Assembly: GCA_026417295.1 (NCBI GenBank) | Contig: JAOADN010000023.1 | Span: 1-34,245, forward strand | Direction of reading: 5' to 3' | Length of the DNA: 34,245 nucleotides | From: Paracoccaceae bacterium | GTDB taxonomy: Bacteria > Pseudomonadota > Alphaproteobacteria > Rhodobacterales > Rhodobacteraceae | The notes under the pieces: model-generated | The model's input: the letters and a program-made list of their open reading frames with translations, nothing else | Told to the model about the DNA's origin: nothing | The model's database searches: none | Part shown: in pieces, positions 21,395 through 28,831 of the stretch | How positions within the stretch are numbered: position 1 is the stretch's first letter | Layout of the letters: the number at the start of each line of letters is the position of its first letter | Made by a program: the position numbers and the translations under genes

Positions 21395-22441
21395 TCAGGG
21401 AACCGGCGACCACATGACGGCCTCGACGGACGGGGCGCCCGTCGCCAGCATGACAAGCCGGTCGAAGCCGAGGGCGATGCCGCTGGCGGGCGGCATGGCG
21501 GAAAGGGCACGGAGGAAATCCTCGTCGAGCGGGTAGCGCTCTCCATGCACGCGCTGCTTCTCGTCCATCTCGGCCTCGAAGCGGCGGCGCTGCTCGGCGG
21601 CATCCGTGAGCTCGCCGAAGCCGTTGGCGAGTTCCACCCCGCAGGCGTAGAGCTCGAAGCGCTCGCTGACGCGCGGATCGTCGGCGGCACGGCGGGCGAG
21701 CGCCGCCTCGGCGGCGGGGTAGCGGTCGAGGATGGTGGCGCGGCCGGTGCCGAGGGCGGGCTCGATCCTTTCGCCGAGAAGGCGCGAGAACATGTCGGAC
21801 CAGGTGTCGCCCGGCGCCGTGCGGACCCCGGCGCGGGCAAGGGCGGCGCGCAGGGCGGCAGGATCGGGCGAGCCGTCGGGGCGGAGGGTGGCGAGAAGGT
21901 CGAAGCCGGCGGCACGGGCCACGGCATCGGCGACCGCGAGGCGTTCGGGCGGCGCCGCGGGATCGCAGGCGCGGTCGCGGAAGCGCAGCAAAGCGGCGCC
22001 GGCCTCGCGCGCGGCGATGGACATGAGGGCGCGGCAGTCCTCCATCAGCACCTCGTAGGGCTCATGCGCACGATACCATTCGAGCATGGTGAATTCGGGG
22101 GCGTGCAGGGCCCCGCGCTCGCGGTTCCGCCAGACATGGGCGAAGGCGAAGATGCGCGTCTCGCCGGCGGCCAGAAGCTTCTTCATGGCGAATTCGGGCG
22201 AGGTGTGCAGGTAGCGGCGGTGGGGCAGCCCGTCGTTCCCGACGGCCTGGGTGGCGAAGGCGTGCAGGTGCGCCTCGTTCCCGGGGCTGACGGCCAGCGC
22301 GGCGGGATCGACCTCGGTGAAGCCCCGGGCGGCGAACCAGTCCGCGATCGCATGCCGGATGCGGTTGCGGGCGAGCAGCAGCCCGCGCCTGTCGGCGTGG
22401 CGGGCGGGCGACCACCAGGGGGTGTCGGGCGTGCGTGTCAT
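21395..22441 (-). CDS. epmA: Elongation factor P lysine (beta-lysyl) ligase EpmA
   Basis: A 348-residue class II LysRS-like enzyme (GenX/PoxA/YjeA) that attaches (R)-beta-lysine to a lysine of EF-P. The anticodon-binding domain of true LysRS is absent, as expected. Visible blocks are SPARHADRRGLLLARNRIR, FTEVDPAALAVSPGNEAHLH, RRYLHTSPEFAMKKLLAAG, motif 2 FAHVWRNRERGALHAPEFTM with LEWYRAHEPYE, then LYACGVELANGFGELTDA, and motif 3 PPASGIALGFDRLVMLATG. The ATG at 22441 is chosen because upstream in-frame codons run into the promoter region of the divergent efp gene. It is convergent with the permease, with 3 bases between the stops. The pairing with efp confirms the call. Confidence 0.95.
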   Translation of the reverse strand: MTRTPDTPWWSPARHADRRGLLLARNRIRHAIADWFAARGFTEVDPAALAVSPGNEAHLHAFATQAVGNDGLPHRRYLHTSPEFAMKKLLAAGETRIFAFAHVWRNRERGALHAPEFTMLEWYRAHEPYEVLMEDCRALMSIAAREAGAALLRFRDRACDPAAPPERLAVADAVARAAGFDLLATLRPDGSPDPAALRAALARAGVRTAPGDTWSDMFSRLLGERIEPALGTGRATILDRYPAAEAALARRAADDPRVSERFELYACGVELANGFGELTDAAEQRRRFEAEMDEKQRVHGERYPLDEDFLRALSAMPPASGIALGFDRLVMLATGAPSVEAVMWSPVP

Positions 22442-22541
22442 GGCTATGGACTGGCGGTCGGGGGAATAATCGGCTAGGTGCGGCGGCGATCCGGGGCCGA
22501 GCCATAGGCCGCCCGCACACGAACCGCAAGGAAGCCAAGCC

Positions 22542-23108
22542 GTGAAAGTCATCGCCTCTTCGCTGCGCAAGGGCAACGTCGTCGAGATGGACGGCAAGCT
22601 CTATGTCGTCCTGTCCGCCACCAACTTCCATCCCGGCAAGGGCACGCCCACGACCAGCGTCGACATGCGCCGGATCGCCGACGGCGTGAAGGTCAGCGAG
22701 AGGTGGAAGACCACCGACCAGGTCGAGAAGGCGACGGTGGACGAGCGGGAATACGACTTTCTCTACGAGGACAGCGAGGGGTTCCACTTCATGAACCCCG
22801 AGACCTACGACCAGGTTACGGTGAGCCCCGATGTCGTGGGCGAGGGCAAGGTCTACCTGCAGGACGGGATGCGGGTCTTCCTGCAGACCTTCGAGGGCGC
22901 GGCGATCGCGATCACCTACCCGCAGAAGATCACCGTCGAGGTGACCGAGACCGAGCCGGTGGTCAAGGGGCAGACGGCCTCGTCGAGCTACAAGCCGGCG
23001 ATGACCTCGAACGGCCTGCGGGTGATGGTGCCGCCCCATATCGGCGCGGGCACCCGGATCGTCATCAACACCGACGACAATTCCTACGTCGAGCGCGCCA
23101 AGGACTGA
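22542..23108 (+). CDS. efp: Translation elongation factor P
   Basis: EF-P binds the ribosome between the P and E sites and relieves stalling at polyproline stretches. It is 188 residues, the normal length. The GTG start has AAGGA about 9 bases upstream. The KOW-like N-terminal domain contains [15 protein letters not shown], where K33 is the residue modified by EpmA. The middle domain has [18 protein letters not shown], and the C-terminal OB domain ends with [18 protein letters not shown]. It is divergent from epmA with 100 bases between the starts, and a hairpin terminator follows. The gene encoding the beta-lysine-forming aminomutase EpmB is not in this window. Confidence 0.97.
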
Positions 23109-23276: not shown

Positions 23277-25349
23277 CTAGAGCAGTTCGGCGATCTCGCG
23301 CCGGAAGGGCAGCGCGTCGCCCGCGGGTCCGGCATCCATCTCCTCGGCGTAGCGCCGCCCCGCATAGGTCGCCCAGGCGATGGGGCCCGGCGCCTCGGCA
23401 TCGCCGATCGCCCTGACGGCGGCGATCCCGACCGCAGCCCATTCCGCCCGCCGCGCCCGCAGTTCGTCCCACAGCGGCGAGGCCGGCAGGCGCGAGGTGA
23501 CCATGACGACGGCCTCGCCCGACAGGTCGCGTTCACGCCCGGTATAGGTGCAGGCGAGCCGCGCGCCGCCCGGCCCGAAGGCGACCGGCGCGTGGGAGAG
23601 GTGCAGCGTGACGCCCCTTTCCAGCAGACGGGCCTGGATCAGGCCCTGTTCCAGCGTGTTGTCGGACCATTCCGCGACCATCGCCGAGGGCGTGACGAAA
23701 TCCACCCGGCAGCCCCGCGCGACGAGCAGCTCGGCCAGGACCGAGCCCATGTAGAAGTGATCGTCGTCATAGAGGATGACGGAGCCCCCCTCCGGCCCCT
23801 GCCCCGCCATCAGGTCGTCGGGGGTGAAGACGGGGATCCCCTCCTGCGGGACGGGCGACAGGTGGAAGCGGGCCACCGTGTCGGCCCGCCAGCGCGCGCC
23901 TGTCGCCACCGCGACCTGGGGAAAGCCCATGGCGAGCACGTCCTCGGCGGAAAGGCGGCTTTCGCGGTAGACCTCGACATTGGGCATCGGGGCGATCTGC
24001 CCGGTGCGGTAGTCGGCCACCCTGCCCCAGGCCGCGAGGCCCGGCAGGGTGCGTTCCGCCGCGACGCGGCCGCCGAGGACCCTTCCCGCCTCGGCCAGGG
24101 TCACCTGATAGCCGCGCCGCCCGAGCTGGAGCGCGGCCTCGAGGCCGGCCGGGCCGGCACCGACGACGAGCACGCGCCCGGTCGGGCCCTTCGGCCGGGC
24201 GCGTTCGGGATGCCAGCCCTTGCGCCATTCCTCCATGAAGGCGGTGTTCTGCGTGCAGCGGCTGAGCGCCCCCGTCTTGTCGCCCGAGACGCAGATGTTG
24301 CAGCCGATGCATTCGCGGATGTCCTCGATCCGGCCCTCCTCGATCTTGCGCGGCAGGAAGGGATCGGCGATCGAGGGGCGCGCCGCGCCGACAAGATCGA
24401 GGATGCCCTCGCGGATCTGGCGGACCATCGCGTCGGGGCTGGTGAAGCGCCCCACACCGACGACGGGCCGGGGCGTCAGCGCCTTCATCCCGCGCACGAG
24501 ATCCTCCTGCGCGCCCTCGTCGCTGAAACGCGAGGTGCCCGAGCAGGCGTGCCAGGAACCCTGGGCGAAGTCCCACAGGTCGGGGAGGTCCGCATGCATG
24601 GCCACGAAATCGCGCAGTTCGGCATTCGACAGGCCCTCGGGGCCGGGCTCGTGCAGCGACAGGCGCAGCGAGATGGCCAGTTCGCCCTTCACCGCCTCGC
24701 GGCAGTCCTCGACGAGTTCGCGGATGAAGCGGCCGCGGTTCGCGAGGCTGCCGCCGTATTCGTCCGTCCGGCGGTTGGTGGCCCGGCTGAGGAAGTGCTG
24801 GAGGATGCCGAAGCCGTGCGCGCCGTAGAGGCAGACGATGTCGAAGCCCGCGGCCCGGGCCCGGCGGAAGGCATTGGCGAACCAGCGGCGCAGGTCGCGG
24901 ATGTCCTCGCGGTCCATCGCGCGGGCCTGGACCGGATCGGGCGTGAAGGTCAGGATCGGGCCGGGCGAGACGGCGAGCGGCACCTCGCGGGTGTAGAAGT
25001 TCGGCCCGTTGATGCCGGAATAGGCCATCTGGATGCCGGCAAGCGCCCCGTGCGACTTCATCGCATCGGCCATGCGGGCGAGCGCGGGGATGTCGCGGTC
25101 GTCCCACAGGCGCTGTTCGATGAAGGGGGTGATCTCGGAGGAATGGTGGATCTCGGTCTGTTCGGTGAAGATCACGCCCCAGCCGCCCTCGGCCTTGGTC
25201 CGCCGCATCTCGGCCACGGCGGACGGGTCGCGGTAGCCGCCGCCGTTGCAGTGGGGCACCTGGAAGAAGCGGTTCTTCGCCACCTTGGGGCCGATGCGGA
25301 CGGGTTCGAAGAGGATGTCGTAGCGGGGATCGCGGCGGGTGTCTGGCAT
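23277..25349 (-). CDS. TMADH-family flavoprotein (FMN, 4Fe-4S; likely N-demethylase)
   Basis: A 690-residue enzyme of the trimethylamine dehydrogenase / old yellow enzyme family. The FMN barrel opens with YDILFEPVRIGPKVAKNRFF and holds C34 in VPHCNGGG, matching the cysteine that binds FMN covalently in TMADH. LYGAHGFGILQHFL keeps Tyr175 and His178 of the catalytic set. The cluster motif CIGCNICVSGDKTGALSRC gives C347, C350, C353 and C365. The C-terminal half has a dinucleotide fold (VLVVGAGPAGLEAALQLGRR), then IGDAEAPGPIAWATYAGRR. At the TMADH Tyr60 substrate position the residue is Q64, so trimethylamine itself is unlikely to be the exact substrate. Relatives include dimethylamine dehydrogenase and N-methylproline or dimethylglycine demethylases. 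The start lies 1 base after the LysR stop, so the two are translationally coupled. Confidence 0.88.
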   Translation of the reverse strand: MPDTRRDPRYDILFEPVRIGPKVAKNRFFQVPHCNGGGYRDPSAVAEMRRTKAEGGWGVIFTEQTEIHHSSEITPFIEQRLWDDRDIPALARMADAMKSHGALAGIQMAYSGINGPNFYTREVPLAVSPGPILTFTPDPVQARAMDREDIRDLRRWFANAFRRARAAGFDIVCLYGAHGFGILQHFLSRATNRRTDEYGGSLANRGRFIRELVEDCREAVKGELAISLRLSLHEPGPEGLSNAELRDFVAMHADLPDLWDFAQGSWHACSGTSRFSDEGAQEDLVRGMKALTPRPVVGVGRFTSPDAMVRQIREGILDLVGAARPSIADPFLPRKIEEGRIEDIRECIGCNICVSGDKTGALSRCTQNTAFMEEWRKGWHPERARPKGPTGRVLVVGAGPAGLEAALQLGRRGYQVTLAEAGRVLGGRVAAERTLPGLAAWGRVADYRTGQIAPMPNVEVYRESRLSAEDVLAMGFPQVAVATGARWRADTVARFHLSPVPQEGIPVFTPDDLMAGQGPEGGSVILYDDDHFYMGSVLAELLVARGCRVDFVTPSAMVAEWSDNTLEQGLIQARLLERGVTLHLSHAPVAFGPGGARLACTYTGRERDLSGEAVVMVTSRLPASPLWDELRARRAEWAAVGIAAVRAIGDAEAPGPIAWATYAGRRYAEEMDAGPAGDALPFRREIAELL

Positions 25350-25350
25350 C

Positions 25351-26295
25351 TCAGTCCGGTCCTCGGGCAGGGGCGCGGAGACCGGGGATCGAGCCCGGCG
25401 TGATCTCGGCGCGGCAATGGTCGGCGAAGGCGCGGACGTTGTGCGACGACAGCGCGCCGGGGCCGGGAAGCAGGCCCATCCGCATCGGGCGGATCGGTCC
25501 CGCGAGCGGGACGAAGGCAAGGCCGCGCCCGTCCGGCGCGCGGTCCGACACCGGGCGGAAATTGGCGATCGACCAGCCGAAGCCGTTGGCGACGAGGCCG
25601 CGCGCGACATCGAGGTCGCGCGTGCGCTCGGCGATCCGGGGCGTGAGGCCGGACCCGGCGAAGAAGGTCAGGAAATAGTCCGCGCTCATCGGCAGGTCGA
25701 GCAGGACGAGGGGCTCGGGGGCGAGGTCCGCCGGCCCGAGCGCGGCCCGCGCGGCCAGGGGATGGCCCTCGGGCAGGACCGCATGGGCGGGCAGCGTGAC
25801 GAGGGGGATGAAGTCGAGATCCGCCGGAAGCCCGAGGTCGTAGGTGAGCGCGATGTCGATCGCGGCGTCGCGCAGGCCCTCGAGGAGGCCGGCCTGGTCG
25901 TGCTCGACCTGGCTGAACTCGACGGCGGGATGGCGGTCCACGAAGCTGCGCCGGACCGCCGGCAGGACGGTCCTGGCGAAGGTGACGAGGCAGCCCACGG
26001 CCAGCCGGCCCTGGACGCTGCCGCGGATCTCGCCGGCATGATCGACGATGCGCGATGCCGCGGCGAGGACGGCGCGTGCATCGGCAAGGATGGCGCGGCC
26101 GGCGGGCGTGAGCGTCAGGCCCCTTGCATGGCGGCGCACGAAGAGCGGCAGGCCGAGATCGGCCTCGAGCTGGGCGATGGCGGCGGAGACGGAGGGCGGG
26201 GAGACGCGGGCGCGCGCCGCCGCCCCCGCGACCGTGCCGGTCTCGGCCACGGCCACGAGGTATTCGAGCTGGCGGAGGCTGAAGCGCAGGGGCAT
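25351..26295 (-). CDS. LysR-family transcriptional regulator
   Basis: A 314-residue regulator. The N-terminal winged helix-turn-helix is FSLRQLEYLVAVAETGTVAG, then AAARARVSPPSVSAAIAQLE and GLPLFVRRHARGLTLTPAGR, all typical for LysR proteins. The remainder is a two-lobed inducer-binding domain (GRLAVGCLVTFARTVLP, then LRDAAIDIALTYD and PLVLLDLPMSADYFLTFF). Unlike most LysR genes it is not divergent from its target. It sits inside a co-directional operon, 5 bases after DUF1028 and 1 base before the TMADH-like gene, so it may be autoregulated together with the whole operon. Its inducer is probably the substrate or an intermediate of that pathway. Confidence 0.93.
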   Translation of the reverse strand: MPLRFSLRQLEYLVAVAETGTVAGAAARARVSPPSVSAAIAQLEADLGLPLFVRRHARGLTLTPAGRAILADARAVLAAASRIVDHAGEIRGSVQGRLAVGCLVTFARTVLPAVRRSFVDRHPAVEFSQVEHDQAGLLEGLRDAAIDIALTYDLGLPADLDFIPLVTLPAHAVLPEGHPLAARAALGPADLAPEPLVLLDLPMSADYFLTFFAGSGLTPRIAERTRDLDVARGLVANGFGWSIANFRPVSDRAPDGRGLAFVPLAGPIRPMRMGLLPGPGALSSHNVRAFADHCRAEITPGSIPGLRAPARGPD

Positions 26296-26300
26296 GGCGG

Positions 26301-26978
26301 CTATTCGTCGCCGGGCACGCCGTAGGACGGCGCCGCGGCCGGGTCGAGCGCGCGGCGGACATAGTCCTCGGCCTGGGGCGCATAGACGGCCCAGGCGCGG
26401 GCCACCGCCTCGATCGGGCAGCCCTCGTCCAGCCAGTCGCAGCGCAGGTCGGCCCAGGGCCAGTCGAGCCGGTGGGCGATCCTGAGGCCGGCCGAATGGA
26501 CGGGCCCCGCCTCGCCGCCGGCGTCGCGCCCGGCGCGCAGGGCGGCGATCAGCCTGTCGCCGAAGGGGCCCCCGGCGGCGGCGAAGGCCGCGACCATGGC
26601 GGCCGGCACTCCGGGATCGGCAAGGAGGTTGCCGCCGGCCGCGCAGTCGCGCCCCTCGGCCTGCCCCCAGAGGCCGAGCACGCCGGCGCCGGTATGGATC
26701 GCCGTGCCGCCCCTCGCATCCACCGCGAGGATCTGGCGGAACCGGGCATGGGCGCGGCCGTCGATGACCGCCGCGACGGCGCGGGCGGCGCCCTCGCCCG
26801 CCGCCATGCGGTCGAGCACGAGGGGCCCGAGGGCAGGGTCGGTGACGTTCTGGCTGGCCACGGCCCCGACGCCGGCGCGCACATGCGCGCAGCGCGCCGC
26901 GACGGCAGGCGAGGAGGAGGAGATGACGATGCCGGTCATGCCGGTCGTGGCGCAGCGGGCGACGAGGGAGAAGGTCAT
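26301..26978 (-). CDS. DUF1028 family protein (Ntn-hydrolase-like)
   Basis: A 225-residue protein of the DUF1028 family, whose members are related in fold to Ntn hydrolases and often sit in amine or peptide catabolic operons; no reaction is established to my knowledge. Family text is clear: MTFSLVARCATTGMTGIVIS, VRAGVGAVASQNVTDPALG, FRQILAVDARGGTAIHTGAG, GRDCAAGGNLLADPGVPAAM and GGEAGPVHSAGLRI. An AAGGAG site lies 11 bases before the ATG. The 149-base space upstream, towards the Rid gene, is filled by an inverted pair of palindromic repeats. LysR follows 5 bases downstream. It could be an amidase or other hydrolase acting on a nitrogen-containing intermediate. Confidence 0.85.
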   Translation of the reverse strand: MTFSLVARCATTGMTGIVISSSSPAVAARCAHVRAGVGAVASQNVTDPALGPLVLDRMAAGEGAARAVAAVIDGRAHARFRQILAVDARGGTAIHTGAGVLGLWGQAEGRDCAAGGNLLADPGVPAAMVAAFAAAGGPFGDRLIAALRAGRDAGGEAGPVHSAGLRIAHRLDWPWADLRCDWLDEGCPIEAVARAWAVYAPQAEDYVRRALDPAAAPSYGVPGDE

Positions 26979-27005
26979 GGTGAGGATGGCTCCTTGCGGC
27001 GGGCC

Positions 27006-27057
27006 GGGGAGGCGCTGCCTCCCCGGACCCCTCCGGAGTACTTTTGCCAGGATGAAG
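27006..27057 (+). repeat. Palindromic repeat copy C
   Basis: The arms GGGGAGGC (27006-27013) and GCCTCCCC (27017-27024) differ from the other copies but remain perfectly complementary. The tail is GGACCCCTCCGGAGTACTTT followed by TGCCAGGATGAAG, ending at 27057. It faces copy D head to head across 13 bases. Confidence 0.85.
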
Positions 27058-27070
27058 GGGAAGGGCGGGT

Positions 27071-27122
27071 CTTCATCCTGGCCGAAATACTCTGCGGGGG
27101 TCCGGGGGTGCAAAACCCCCGG
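27071..27122 (-). repeat. Palindromic repeat copy D, inverted partner of copy C
   Basis: Read on the minus strand, CCGGGGG and CCCCCGG form the hairpin (27102-27122), followed by the tail ending CGGCCAGGATGAAG at 27071. It starts 6 bases after the Rid stop codon. With copy C it makes a 22-base inverted repeat (27036-27057 with 27071-27092) with three mismatches, so the operon transcript can form a long hairpin here. Confidence 0.85.
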
Positions 27123-27127
27123 CGCCT

Positions 27128-27541
27128 TCAGTCCGGGATGACGGCCGTCGCATCGATCTCGACCAGCCAGCCGGGGCGGGCGAGCGCGGTGACGACGACG
27201 CCCGTCGAGACGGGGTGCACGCCGCGGATGTACTCGCCCATCGTGCGGTAGACCGCCTCGCGGTGGCGCACGTCGGTGAGGTAGACGACGAGCTTGCACA
27301 GGTGCTCCATACGGCCGCCGCATTCCTCGATCAGCTGGCGGATGTTCTGCATCACCTTGTGGGTCTGTTCGACCGGATCGTGGCTGGCGATGTCGCGCGC
27401 GGTGTCGAGATCCTGCGGGCACTGGCCGCGCAGGAAGATCGTCGTGCCGCGGGCGACGACGGCCTGGGCGAGGTCGTTGTCGAGGCGCTGCTCGGGATAG
27501 GTGTCGCGGGTGTTGAACTTGCGGTGGCGGAGATGGGCCAT
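27128..27541 (-). CDS. Rid (YjgF/YER057c/UK114) family protein
   Basis: A 137-residue protein of the Rid family, trimeric enamine/imine deaminases that clear reactive intermediates made by PLP or flavin enzymes. The family's key arginine is present (R122 in ALARPGWLVEIDATAV, with E129 following), which favours an active deaminase rather than an inactive paralogue. Other family text is TIFLRGQCPQDLDT, DPVEQTHKVMQNIRQLIEEC and LCKLVVYLTDVRHREAVYRT. It begins 15 bases after the flavin monooxygenase gene, so both are in one operon. Its likely job is hydrolysis of an imine or enamine produced by the flavin enzymes of the operon. The ribosome site is weak. Confidence 0.9.
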   Translation of the reverse strand: MAHLRHRKFNTRDTYPEQRLDNDLAQAVVARGTTIFLRGQCPQDLDTARDIASHDPVEQTHKVMQNIRQLIEECGGRMEHLCKLVVYLTDVRHREAVYRTMGEYIRGVHPVSTGVVVTALARPGWLVEIDATAVIPD

Positions 27542-27556
27542 GGCTGGGGATCCCGT

Positions 27557-28831
27557 TCAGGCGGAGGCGGGGGAGGATTCGCGGCGGGGCGCGGGGGAAT
27601 AGGCGAGGTAGGCACGGCACTTGCCGATCTGGTCGGCGATGAACTTCGCGTCGTGCCAGACGCCCCAGAGGAAGGACGAGCCGCGGCGCGTCTGCCAGGG
27701 CAGGCCGAGGAAGTAGACGCCGGGTTCGGAGGAGATGCCGCGCTGGTGGCGGGGCGTGCCGTCGGGGTGGAAGGCGTCGACCTGGAGCCAGCCGAAGTCG
27801 AGTGCGAAGCCGGTCGCCCAGAGGATCGACGTGACCCCGGCGGCCGCGAGGTCGAGGGCGAGGACGGGGCGGGTCACGCAGTCGGGATCGGGCGGGATGA
27901 CGCGCGCCGCGGGCTCGGGCGGCAGGTCCATGCCGTTGCGGGCGGCCCAGGCATCGGCCTCGTCGAGAAGGGCGAGATAGTCCGCGTCGCCCCGGGCGAG
28001 GTTCGCCGCGAGGTCGGGGGCGAAGTGCATGATGCCGTCGCGGAACGCCGCCGTGCGCCCCACGAGCACCATGCCGCGCCGGGCGAAGCGGCGGAAGTCG
28101 ACGGTCTGGCCGCCATAGGCGCCGCTGACGGCGATGGTGACATGTTCGGTCGTCGGCGGCGCCTCGATGTCCCACTTGCCGAGGACGCCGAGCCACCAGA
28201 CGAAGTCGCGCCCGCGATAGGCGCGGGGCGGCCGGCCGTGCGGGCCGACGGAGAGGTAGACGCGGCGCCCGGCACGCAGGAGCTCGTCGGCGATCTGCGC
28301 GCCCGACGAGCCGCAGCCGACGACCAGCACCGCGCCGGGGGGAAGCTGGGCGGGATTGCGGTAGGCCGCTGAATGGATCTGCACGAGGCCCGCCCCGTCG
28401 GGGACGATGGGCGGGATCAGCGGCTTCTGGAACGGGCCGGTCGCTGCCACGACATGCTGCGCCTCGATCGGGCCGGCGGTGGTTTCGGCGCGGAAGCCGG
28501 GCCGGCCCTCGAGCCGGCGGAGGGATTTCACCTCGACCCCCGTGCGGATCGGCGCGCCGATGCGGCGGGCATAGTCGACGAGGTAGTCGGCGACGGCCTC
28601 CTTCGGGGCGAAGGCGTCGGGGTCGCCGGCGAATTCGAGGCCGGGGAAGCGGTCATGCCAGGCCGGGCCGTTGGCGACGAGGGAATCCCAGCGCTCGGAC
28701 CGCCAGCGTTCGGCGATGCGGCCGCGTTCGAGGACGAGATGGGCGATCGAGCGCTGCCCGAGATGTTCGCTGATCGCGATGCCGGCCTGCCCCCCGCCGA
28801 CGACTAGAACCTCGGTCTGCTCGACGGCCAT
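27557..28831 (-). CDS. Flavin-containing monooxygenase (CzcO/FMO-like)
   Basis: A 424-residue FAD/NAD(P)H flavoprotein and the first gene of the five-gene operon. The FAD site is VLVVGGGQAGIAISEHLGQR and the NADPH site is AVLVVGCGSSGAQIADELLR. Between them is WDSLVANGPAWHDRFPG, typical of CzcO-like monooxygenases. The C-terminal ATGF-type block is SILWATGFALDFGWLQVD. GGGAGG lies 7 bases before the ATG. The enzyme should add oxygen to a nitrogen, sulfur or carbonyl group of a small molecule. The pairing with a Rid protein and a TMADH-like enzyme suggests N-oxidation of an amine. About 207 bases upstream separate it from iolG and should hold the operon promoter, but no clear -35/-10 pair was found. 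Confidence 0.88.
   Translation of the reverse strand: MAVEQTEVLVVGGGQAGIAISEHLGQRSIAHLVLERGRIAERWRSERWDSLVANGPAWHDRFPGLEFAGDPDAFAPKEAVADYLVDYARRIGAPIRTGVEVKSLRRLEGRPGFRAETTAGPIEAQHVVAATGPFQKPLIPPIVPDGAGLVQIHSAAYRNPAQLPPGAVLVVGCGSSGAQIADELLRAGRRVYLSVGPHGRPPRAYRGRDFVWWLGVLGKWDIEAPPTTEHVTIAVSGAYGGQTVDFRRFARRGMVLVGRTAAFRDGIMHFAPDLAANLARGDADYLALLDEADAWAARNGMDLPPEPAARVIPPDPDCVTRPVLALDLAAAGVTSILWATGFALDFGWLQVDAFHPDGTPRHQRGISSEPGVYFLGLPWQTRRGSSFLWGVWHDAKFIADQIGKCRAYLAYSPAPRRESSPASA

Follow-up and report, generated by a model that had tools for sequence, protein, structure and literature searches.

We analyzed a 34,245-nucleotide (nt) stretch of DNA from a Paracoccaceae bacterium (contig JAOADN010000023.1 of assembly GCA_026417295.1; hereafter, the window), in which five minus-strand genes at 23277-28831 encode an FMO-type flavoprotein (FMO), a Rid-family protein, a DUF1028 protein, a LysR-type regulator and a flavoprotein of the trimethylamine dehydrogenase (TMADH) superfamily. 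These genes very probably form a hin-type operon for catabolism of histamine and imidazole-4-acetate, in a variant whose entry enzyme is a histamine dehydrogenase (HDH). A first-pass annotation of the window had described five same-strand genes with gaps of 15, 149, 5 and 1 nt, and this layout was confirmed with all open reading frames (ORFs) intact. The annotation had also read the genes as an undescribed system with no assigned pathway, and this part was mostly not sustained, since FMO-Rid-DUF1028(-M20) corresponds to hinFLHG of the Pseudomonas pathway from histamine to aspartate. The substrates it suggested (stachydrine, N-methylproline, creatine and others) miss histamine, to which the evidence points; its view of a catabolic set that handles a nitrogen-containing compound is supported.

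The last gene had been taken for a cysteinyl-FMN demethylase, and its product is predicted here to deaminate histamine instead. Among solved structures, the best match of the 690-aa flavoprotein was Rhizobium sp. HDH (6DE6, 1030 bits), followed by Nocardioides HDH (3K30, 863 bits), 6L6J (651 bits) and TMADH (484 bits); on these scores we rejected an N-demethylase or TMADH identity. The protein is 65% identical to Rhizobium HDH (over 686 aa) and 58% identical to Nocardioides HDH. We next mapped the active-site and tunnel residues listed in PMC10180351 on 42 HDH homologues. The window HDH keeps 13 of the 14 active-site residues compared with Rhizobium HDH; Cys30 (6-S-Cys-FMN), the 4Fe-4S cysteines, Gln60, Phe72, Glu74, Asn110, Tyr171, His174, Phe176, Trp263 and Asp354 are present. 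In its own numbering the protein has Cys34 (codon 25248-25250), together with a CIGCNIC...C motif. Across the 42 homologues, Cys30, Gln60, Glu74, Asn110, Phe131, Tyr171, His174, Phe176, Arg225, Trp263 and Asp354 were invariant and Ile69 and Phe72 nearly so, the sole variable residue among those mapped being position 265 (25 Asp, 9 Ala, 5 Glu, 2 Gln and 1 Asn). In the tree, the window HDH fell in a clade (98/100) sister to the Rhizobium HDH clade, and Nocardioides HDH, a long branch, fell outside both, so that histamine oxidation is the bracketed state for the window enzyme. Note that this second HDH clade occurs mostly as a set of PotABCD-type transporter, C-N hydrolase and HDH (loci L188-L199); we considered AguB as the identity of the C-N hydrolase and rejected it, as no AguB match was obtained. 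The organism's own genome encodes a second TMADH-family protein (contig C110, L204:6504-8516), 46-47% identical to the window HDH, which lacks the FMN-linking Cys and has other pocket residues.

The remaining genes were compared with the characterized hin genes. In P. putida U, the six steps that lead from histamine through imidazole-4-acetate to aspartate require hinABCD, hinFLHG, hinIJ and hinK, and in P. aeruginosa hinF-L-H-G are PA5393-5390, which histamine induces together with other catabolic genes 240- to 2200-fold; HinK is a LysR protein that senses imidazole-4-acetate and controls the hin genes (PMC8231116). HinF is an FAD-monooxygenase (EC 1.14.13.5), HinL an enamine deaminase and HinH an amidase (PMC6467879), and HinG has been called an amidase (EC 3.5.1.8) or a "peptidic bond hydrolase" (PMC6467879, PMC8231116). 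The published identities are 60-63% for HinF, 61-65% for HinL and 48-50% for HinH (PMC6467879), and those we computed between Pseudomonas and actinobacterial proteins are 66-71% for FMO, 59-66% for Rid and mostly 48-50%, in one case 40%, for DUF1028. Given the same make-up and order and the agreeing cross-phylum identities, the FMO is probably an imidazole-4-acetate monooxygenase of the HinF type, the Rid protein probably HinL and the DUF1028 protein probably HinH, with the M20 hydrolase of other loci corresponding to HinG. Where FMO-Rid-DUF1028(-M20) operons occur in other genera, Pseudomonas among them, the FMO at their head is 62-72% identical to the window FMO. The LysR protein is probably the regulator of the operon; a LysR gene stands beside the set in 39 of 60 Rhodobacteraceae loci. 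Anchoring by synteny to PAO1, through genes flanking P. citronellolis-like loci, gave nothing useful.

Conservation of the core was examined in 80 loci of named genomes (Pseudomonas, Enterobacterales, Burkholderiales and a few others), which were the top of a sorted hit list with a Klebsiella FMO as first query and thus not a random sample, and in the 60 Rhodobacteraceae loci. FMO occurred with Rid and DUF1028 in all 80 named loci, an M20 hydrolase in 79, and the strict order FMO-Rid-DUF1028 on one strand in 66; in Rhodobacteraceae, Rid was within 9 kb of FMO in 50 loci and DUF1028 in 49. The three genes are thus grouped more than by chance, in agreement with the earlier claim of a conserved functional set. 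FMO orthologues (58-74% identity), distinct from a paralogue group at 36-42%, were present in 115 of 397 Rhodobacteraceae genomes (~29%). A close HDH was found in 68 of the 397, and 64 of these 68 also carry the FMO (Fisher p = 8e-37, uncorrected for phylogeny), the two genes lying no more than 15 kb apart in 49 of 62 mapped pairs. A search of the window's genus found no second genome. The best NCBIfam match of the FMO was TIGR04046 (MSMEG_0569 family) at 353 bits, below the cut-off of 498, and the identity groups are clearly separate; we therefore rejected membership in this nitrilase-cluster family. The structure model of the FMO is less certain (predicted local distance difference test, pLDDT, 74), and its nearest solved structures are one-component flavin-containing monooxygenases.

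The Rid protein, aligned to 3R0P/3K0T, lacks the catalytic Arg of the RidA "PaR" motif, and in the common motifs of 137 Rid homologues its place is taken by Ser or Cys. Since this Arg is missing, the chemistry of the Rid protein should not be equated with that of RidA, and the imine hydrolysis proposed for it earlier is not assumed here. For the DUF1028 protein, a model (pLDDT 87) was searched with Foldseek; 2IMH came first, followed by much weaker matches to proteasome subunits, HslV, MTH1020/PurO and asparaginase EcAIII, all of which are N-terminal nucleophile (Ntn) hydrolases. Thr2 is kept in 133 of 133 DUF1028 homologues, and from this together with the Ntn fold we propose Thr2 as the nucleophile after Met removal. 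None of the papers found in our literature search mentions DUF1028.

The genes placed beside the core vary between organisms. Klebsiella and several Pseudomonas loci have an aminotransferase and an aldehyde dehydrogenase (ALDH) there, an Arthrobacter plasmid has a copper amine oxidase and an ALDH before the core and an aspartate ammonia-lyase after it, and Rhodobacteraceae core loci have HDH plus, varying by locus, ALDH, M20 and a spermidine/putrescine (PotABCD)-type ATP-binding cassette (ABC) transporter; the culturable Leisingera methylohalidivorans is an example with the full cluster. This exchange of entry modules beside one core supports the histamine/imidazole-acetate reading. The hydroxylase is replaced as well: in three of the four HDH genomes that lack the FMO, the HDH-Rid-DUF1028 cluster encodes a flavin reductase together with a two-component flavin monooxygenase of the HpaB type, and the order HpaB-Rieske-reductase-Rid-DUF1028 in locus L203 parallels FMO-Rieske-reductase-Rid-DUF1028 in L066. 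Such non-orthologous replacement fits a ring-hydroxylating role of the FMO.

From the observed gene set and order, protein families, active-site residues, co-occurrence and replacements, we infer as follows both the individual reactions in the window organism and the sequence in which HinL and HinH act. Histamine would enter the cell and be deaminated by the flavin/Fe-S HDH to imidazole-4-acetaldehyde, which an ALDH encoded elsewhere would convert to imidazole-4-acetate. The FMO (HinF) would then oxygenate the ring of imidazole-4-acetate; its opening, and the hydrolysis that yields N-formyl-aspartate, would be carried out by Rid (HinL) together with the DUF1028 Ntn-hydrolase (HinH), and an M20 hydrolase (HinG) would release formate and aspartate. 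The LysR protein would regulate the set, possibly sensing imidazole-4-acetate as HinK does.

Several observations weigh against this pathway. Asp265 of the Rhizobium HDH catalytic triad, where substitution is not tolerated (PMC10180351), is Ala in the window HDH. Genes of the window-type HDH clade often lie away from FMO, and the co-occurrence counts carry no phylogenetic correction. No ALDH, M20 or transporter gene is linked to the window operon; in the organism's own assembly (2.73 Mb, 201 contigs, 77% complete) no HinG-like M20 was found, the best match being 33%, and the nearest ALDH (50% identity) stands in another gene context. In addition, the proposed equation with HinF, HinL and HinH draws on gene order, gene names and percent identities taken from the literature rather than on direct sequence comparison. 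The objection from Ala265 is weakened, with some doubt staying, by the Asp, Ala, Glu, Gln and Asn found at this position among linked homologues; as position 265 varies even in core-linked enzymes, we rejected Ala265 as proof of another substrate. It would nevertheless suit an operon whose core follows the imidazole-4-acetate pathway while the main substrate of its HDH is agmatine, 1,3-diaminopropane, N-methylhistamine or a related compound, so that a mixture of amines is taken in. Rhizobium HDH oxidises agmatine at 10% and 1,3-diaminopropane at 13% of the histamine rate (PMC10180351), and the clade of the window HDH is a separate one, in which the gene often accompanies a polyamine-type ABC transporter and a C-N hydrolase away from FMO. 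However, the window HDH retains the aromatic bowl and the histamine-specificity residues Phe72 and Asn110, its gene sits inside the hin core operon, and we consider this alternative improbable.

The lack of a HinG-like M20 and of a linked ALDH or transporter could instead mean a partly decayed or incomplete system that serves detoxification or nitrogen supply and not carbon use, which would be compatible with the histamine pathway; with so fragmented and partial an assembly, all five genes intact, and a Rieske oxygenase (73%) and a C-N hydrolase (59%) of related-cluster types 0.8 kb apart on contig C120 of the same genome, we regard it as unlikely. The same Rieske oxygenase could be cited for an undescribed pathway, for example for N-methylated or betaine-type compounds, with a TMADH-like demethylase, the FMO and an imine-hydrolysing Rid, because Rieske oxygenases in many related loci distantly resemble GbcA (glycine betaine) and carnitine monooxygenases, and the last gene does belong to the TMADH superfamily. 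The HDH identity and pocket, the hin-type order of the core and the exchange of HDH with an aminotransferase or a copper amine oxidase all indicate a system that deaminates a primary amine, for instance histamine, and Rid has no RidA arginine, making such a pathway very improbable indeed. A broader proposal builds on the hin-type operon itself: the Rhodobacteraceae core might be the hub of a modular network for histamine and other imidazole amines (e.g., methylated ones) with no known pathway, having interchangeable entry modules (two HDH clades, Rieske oxygenase plus ABC transporter, C-N hydrolase), FMO or HpaB as ring hydroxylase and, in some loci, a LysR-fused reductase. We offer this as a speculative and rather doubtful extension.

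Coordinates of the operon and of related features in other loci are given in the table below. The HDH starts at 25349, a longer 777-aa ORF being an upstream extension that overlaps the LysR gene. The 149-nt gap between rid and DUF1028, one long hairpin whose core is an interspersed repeat with four copies in the organism's genome, is the sole real break in the five-gene unit and the sole feature arguing against a uniform transcript; altered mRNA stability or a division of the operon would be possible effects. The flanks are unrelated to the operon: upstream are IolG and an inositol/sugar-type ABC transporter, and downstream (21395-23108) are the EF-P gene and, as a divergent neighbour, EpmA (EF-P lysine aminoacylase), adjoined by an amino-acid-type ABC transporter.

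Table. Features of the window operon and related features in other loci (L numbers denote loci).
Feature	Position	Strand	Details
FMO-type FAD/NAD(P)H flavoprotein (probable HinF)	27557-28831	minus	424 aa; intact ORF; Pfam Pyr_redox_3/FMO-like
Rid-family protein (probable HinL)	27128-27541	minus	137 aa; intact ORF; Pfam Ribonuc_L-PSP
Long hairpin between rid and DUF1028	26979-27127	minus	149 nt intergenic; fold -93 kcal/mol, z -7.2
DUF1028 protein (probable HinH)	26301-26978	minus	225 aa; intact ORF; Pfam DUF1028
LysR-type regulator	25351-26295	minus	314 aa; intact ORF; Pfam LysR
TMADH-/histamine-dehydrogenase-type flavoprotein	23277-25349	minus	690 aa; Pfam Oxidored_FMN + pyridine-nucleotide domains
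HpaB-type monooxygenase replacing FMO	L202:1749-3287; L203:1220-2734; L201:15662-17179 (-)		hin-type clusters of three genomes
Flavin reductase (PF01613) fused to LysR substrate-binding domain (PF03466)	L203:3882-5048; L202:4414-5577; L066:11409-12569	plus	one ORF
Burkholderiaceae LysR-Rieske-PotA module	L134, L140, L141, L147, L156, L166-L168, L173, L174, L176		~6.3-9 kb in each

An HpaB-type monooxygenase also occurs alongside the FMO in L062 and L069. The fusion of a flavin reductase to a LysR substrate-binding domain has no DNA-binding domain and is found in L043, L063, L080, L084 and L201 as well; in the eight hin-type clusters the fusions are 61-64% identical over their full length. By analogy to the C1 reductase of p-hydroxyphenylacetate hydroxylase, the fusion may be a ligand-gated reductase. 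In Burkholderiaceae, a divergent module of LysR, Rieske oxygenase and PotA-type transporter adjoins the FMO-Rid-DUF1028-M20 operon in loci with no HDH match, and is possibly another entry route into imidazole-acetate.

The operon would provide a natural pathway context for HDH, which is known chiefly through its use in food biosensors; no description of HDH together with hin genes was found in our literature search. Judging by the share of sampled Rhodobacteraceae genomes that carry the FMO, use of histamine may well be widespread in this family. Furthermore, DUF1028, a Pfam family of unknown function, could now be tested as an N-terminal-Thr amidohydrolase acting in the imidazole-acetate route.

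Among known systems, the TIGR04046 family is set apart from the window FMO by its different gene context; the family's genomes also encode a group of ~36-42% identical proteins, distinct from the hin-type orthologues at 58-74%. SPO2555 (2IMH) shares its fold and Pfam family with the window DUF1028 protein, at ~28% identity in the structure match, and has no assigned function. The HDHs of Rhizobium sp. 4-9 (6DE6) and Nocardioides simplex (3K30) have the Cys-FMN, the 4Fe-4S motif, the Tyr/His pair and the aromatic bowl in common with the window enzyme, which differs from Rhizobium HDH in its sister-clade position and in Ala at 265. With Pseudomonas hin, the window operon shares the core FMO-Rid-DUF1028 in this order, a LysR regulator, the predicted intermediate imidazole-4-acetate and the predicted end product aspartate. 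In contrast to Pseudomonas, the LysR gene lies inside the operon, hinG and hinD are not linked to it, and other Rhodobacteraceae add a Rieske oxygenase, a C-N hydrolase and a PotABCD-type transporter. In place of a HinC aminotransferase, which the window operon lacks, the predicted entry enzyme is a TMADH-type HDH; we therefore regard it as a variant of the Pseudomonas pathway and not as that pathway itself.

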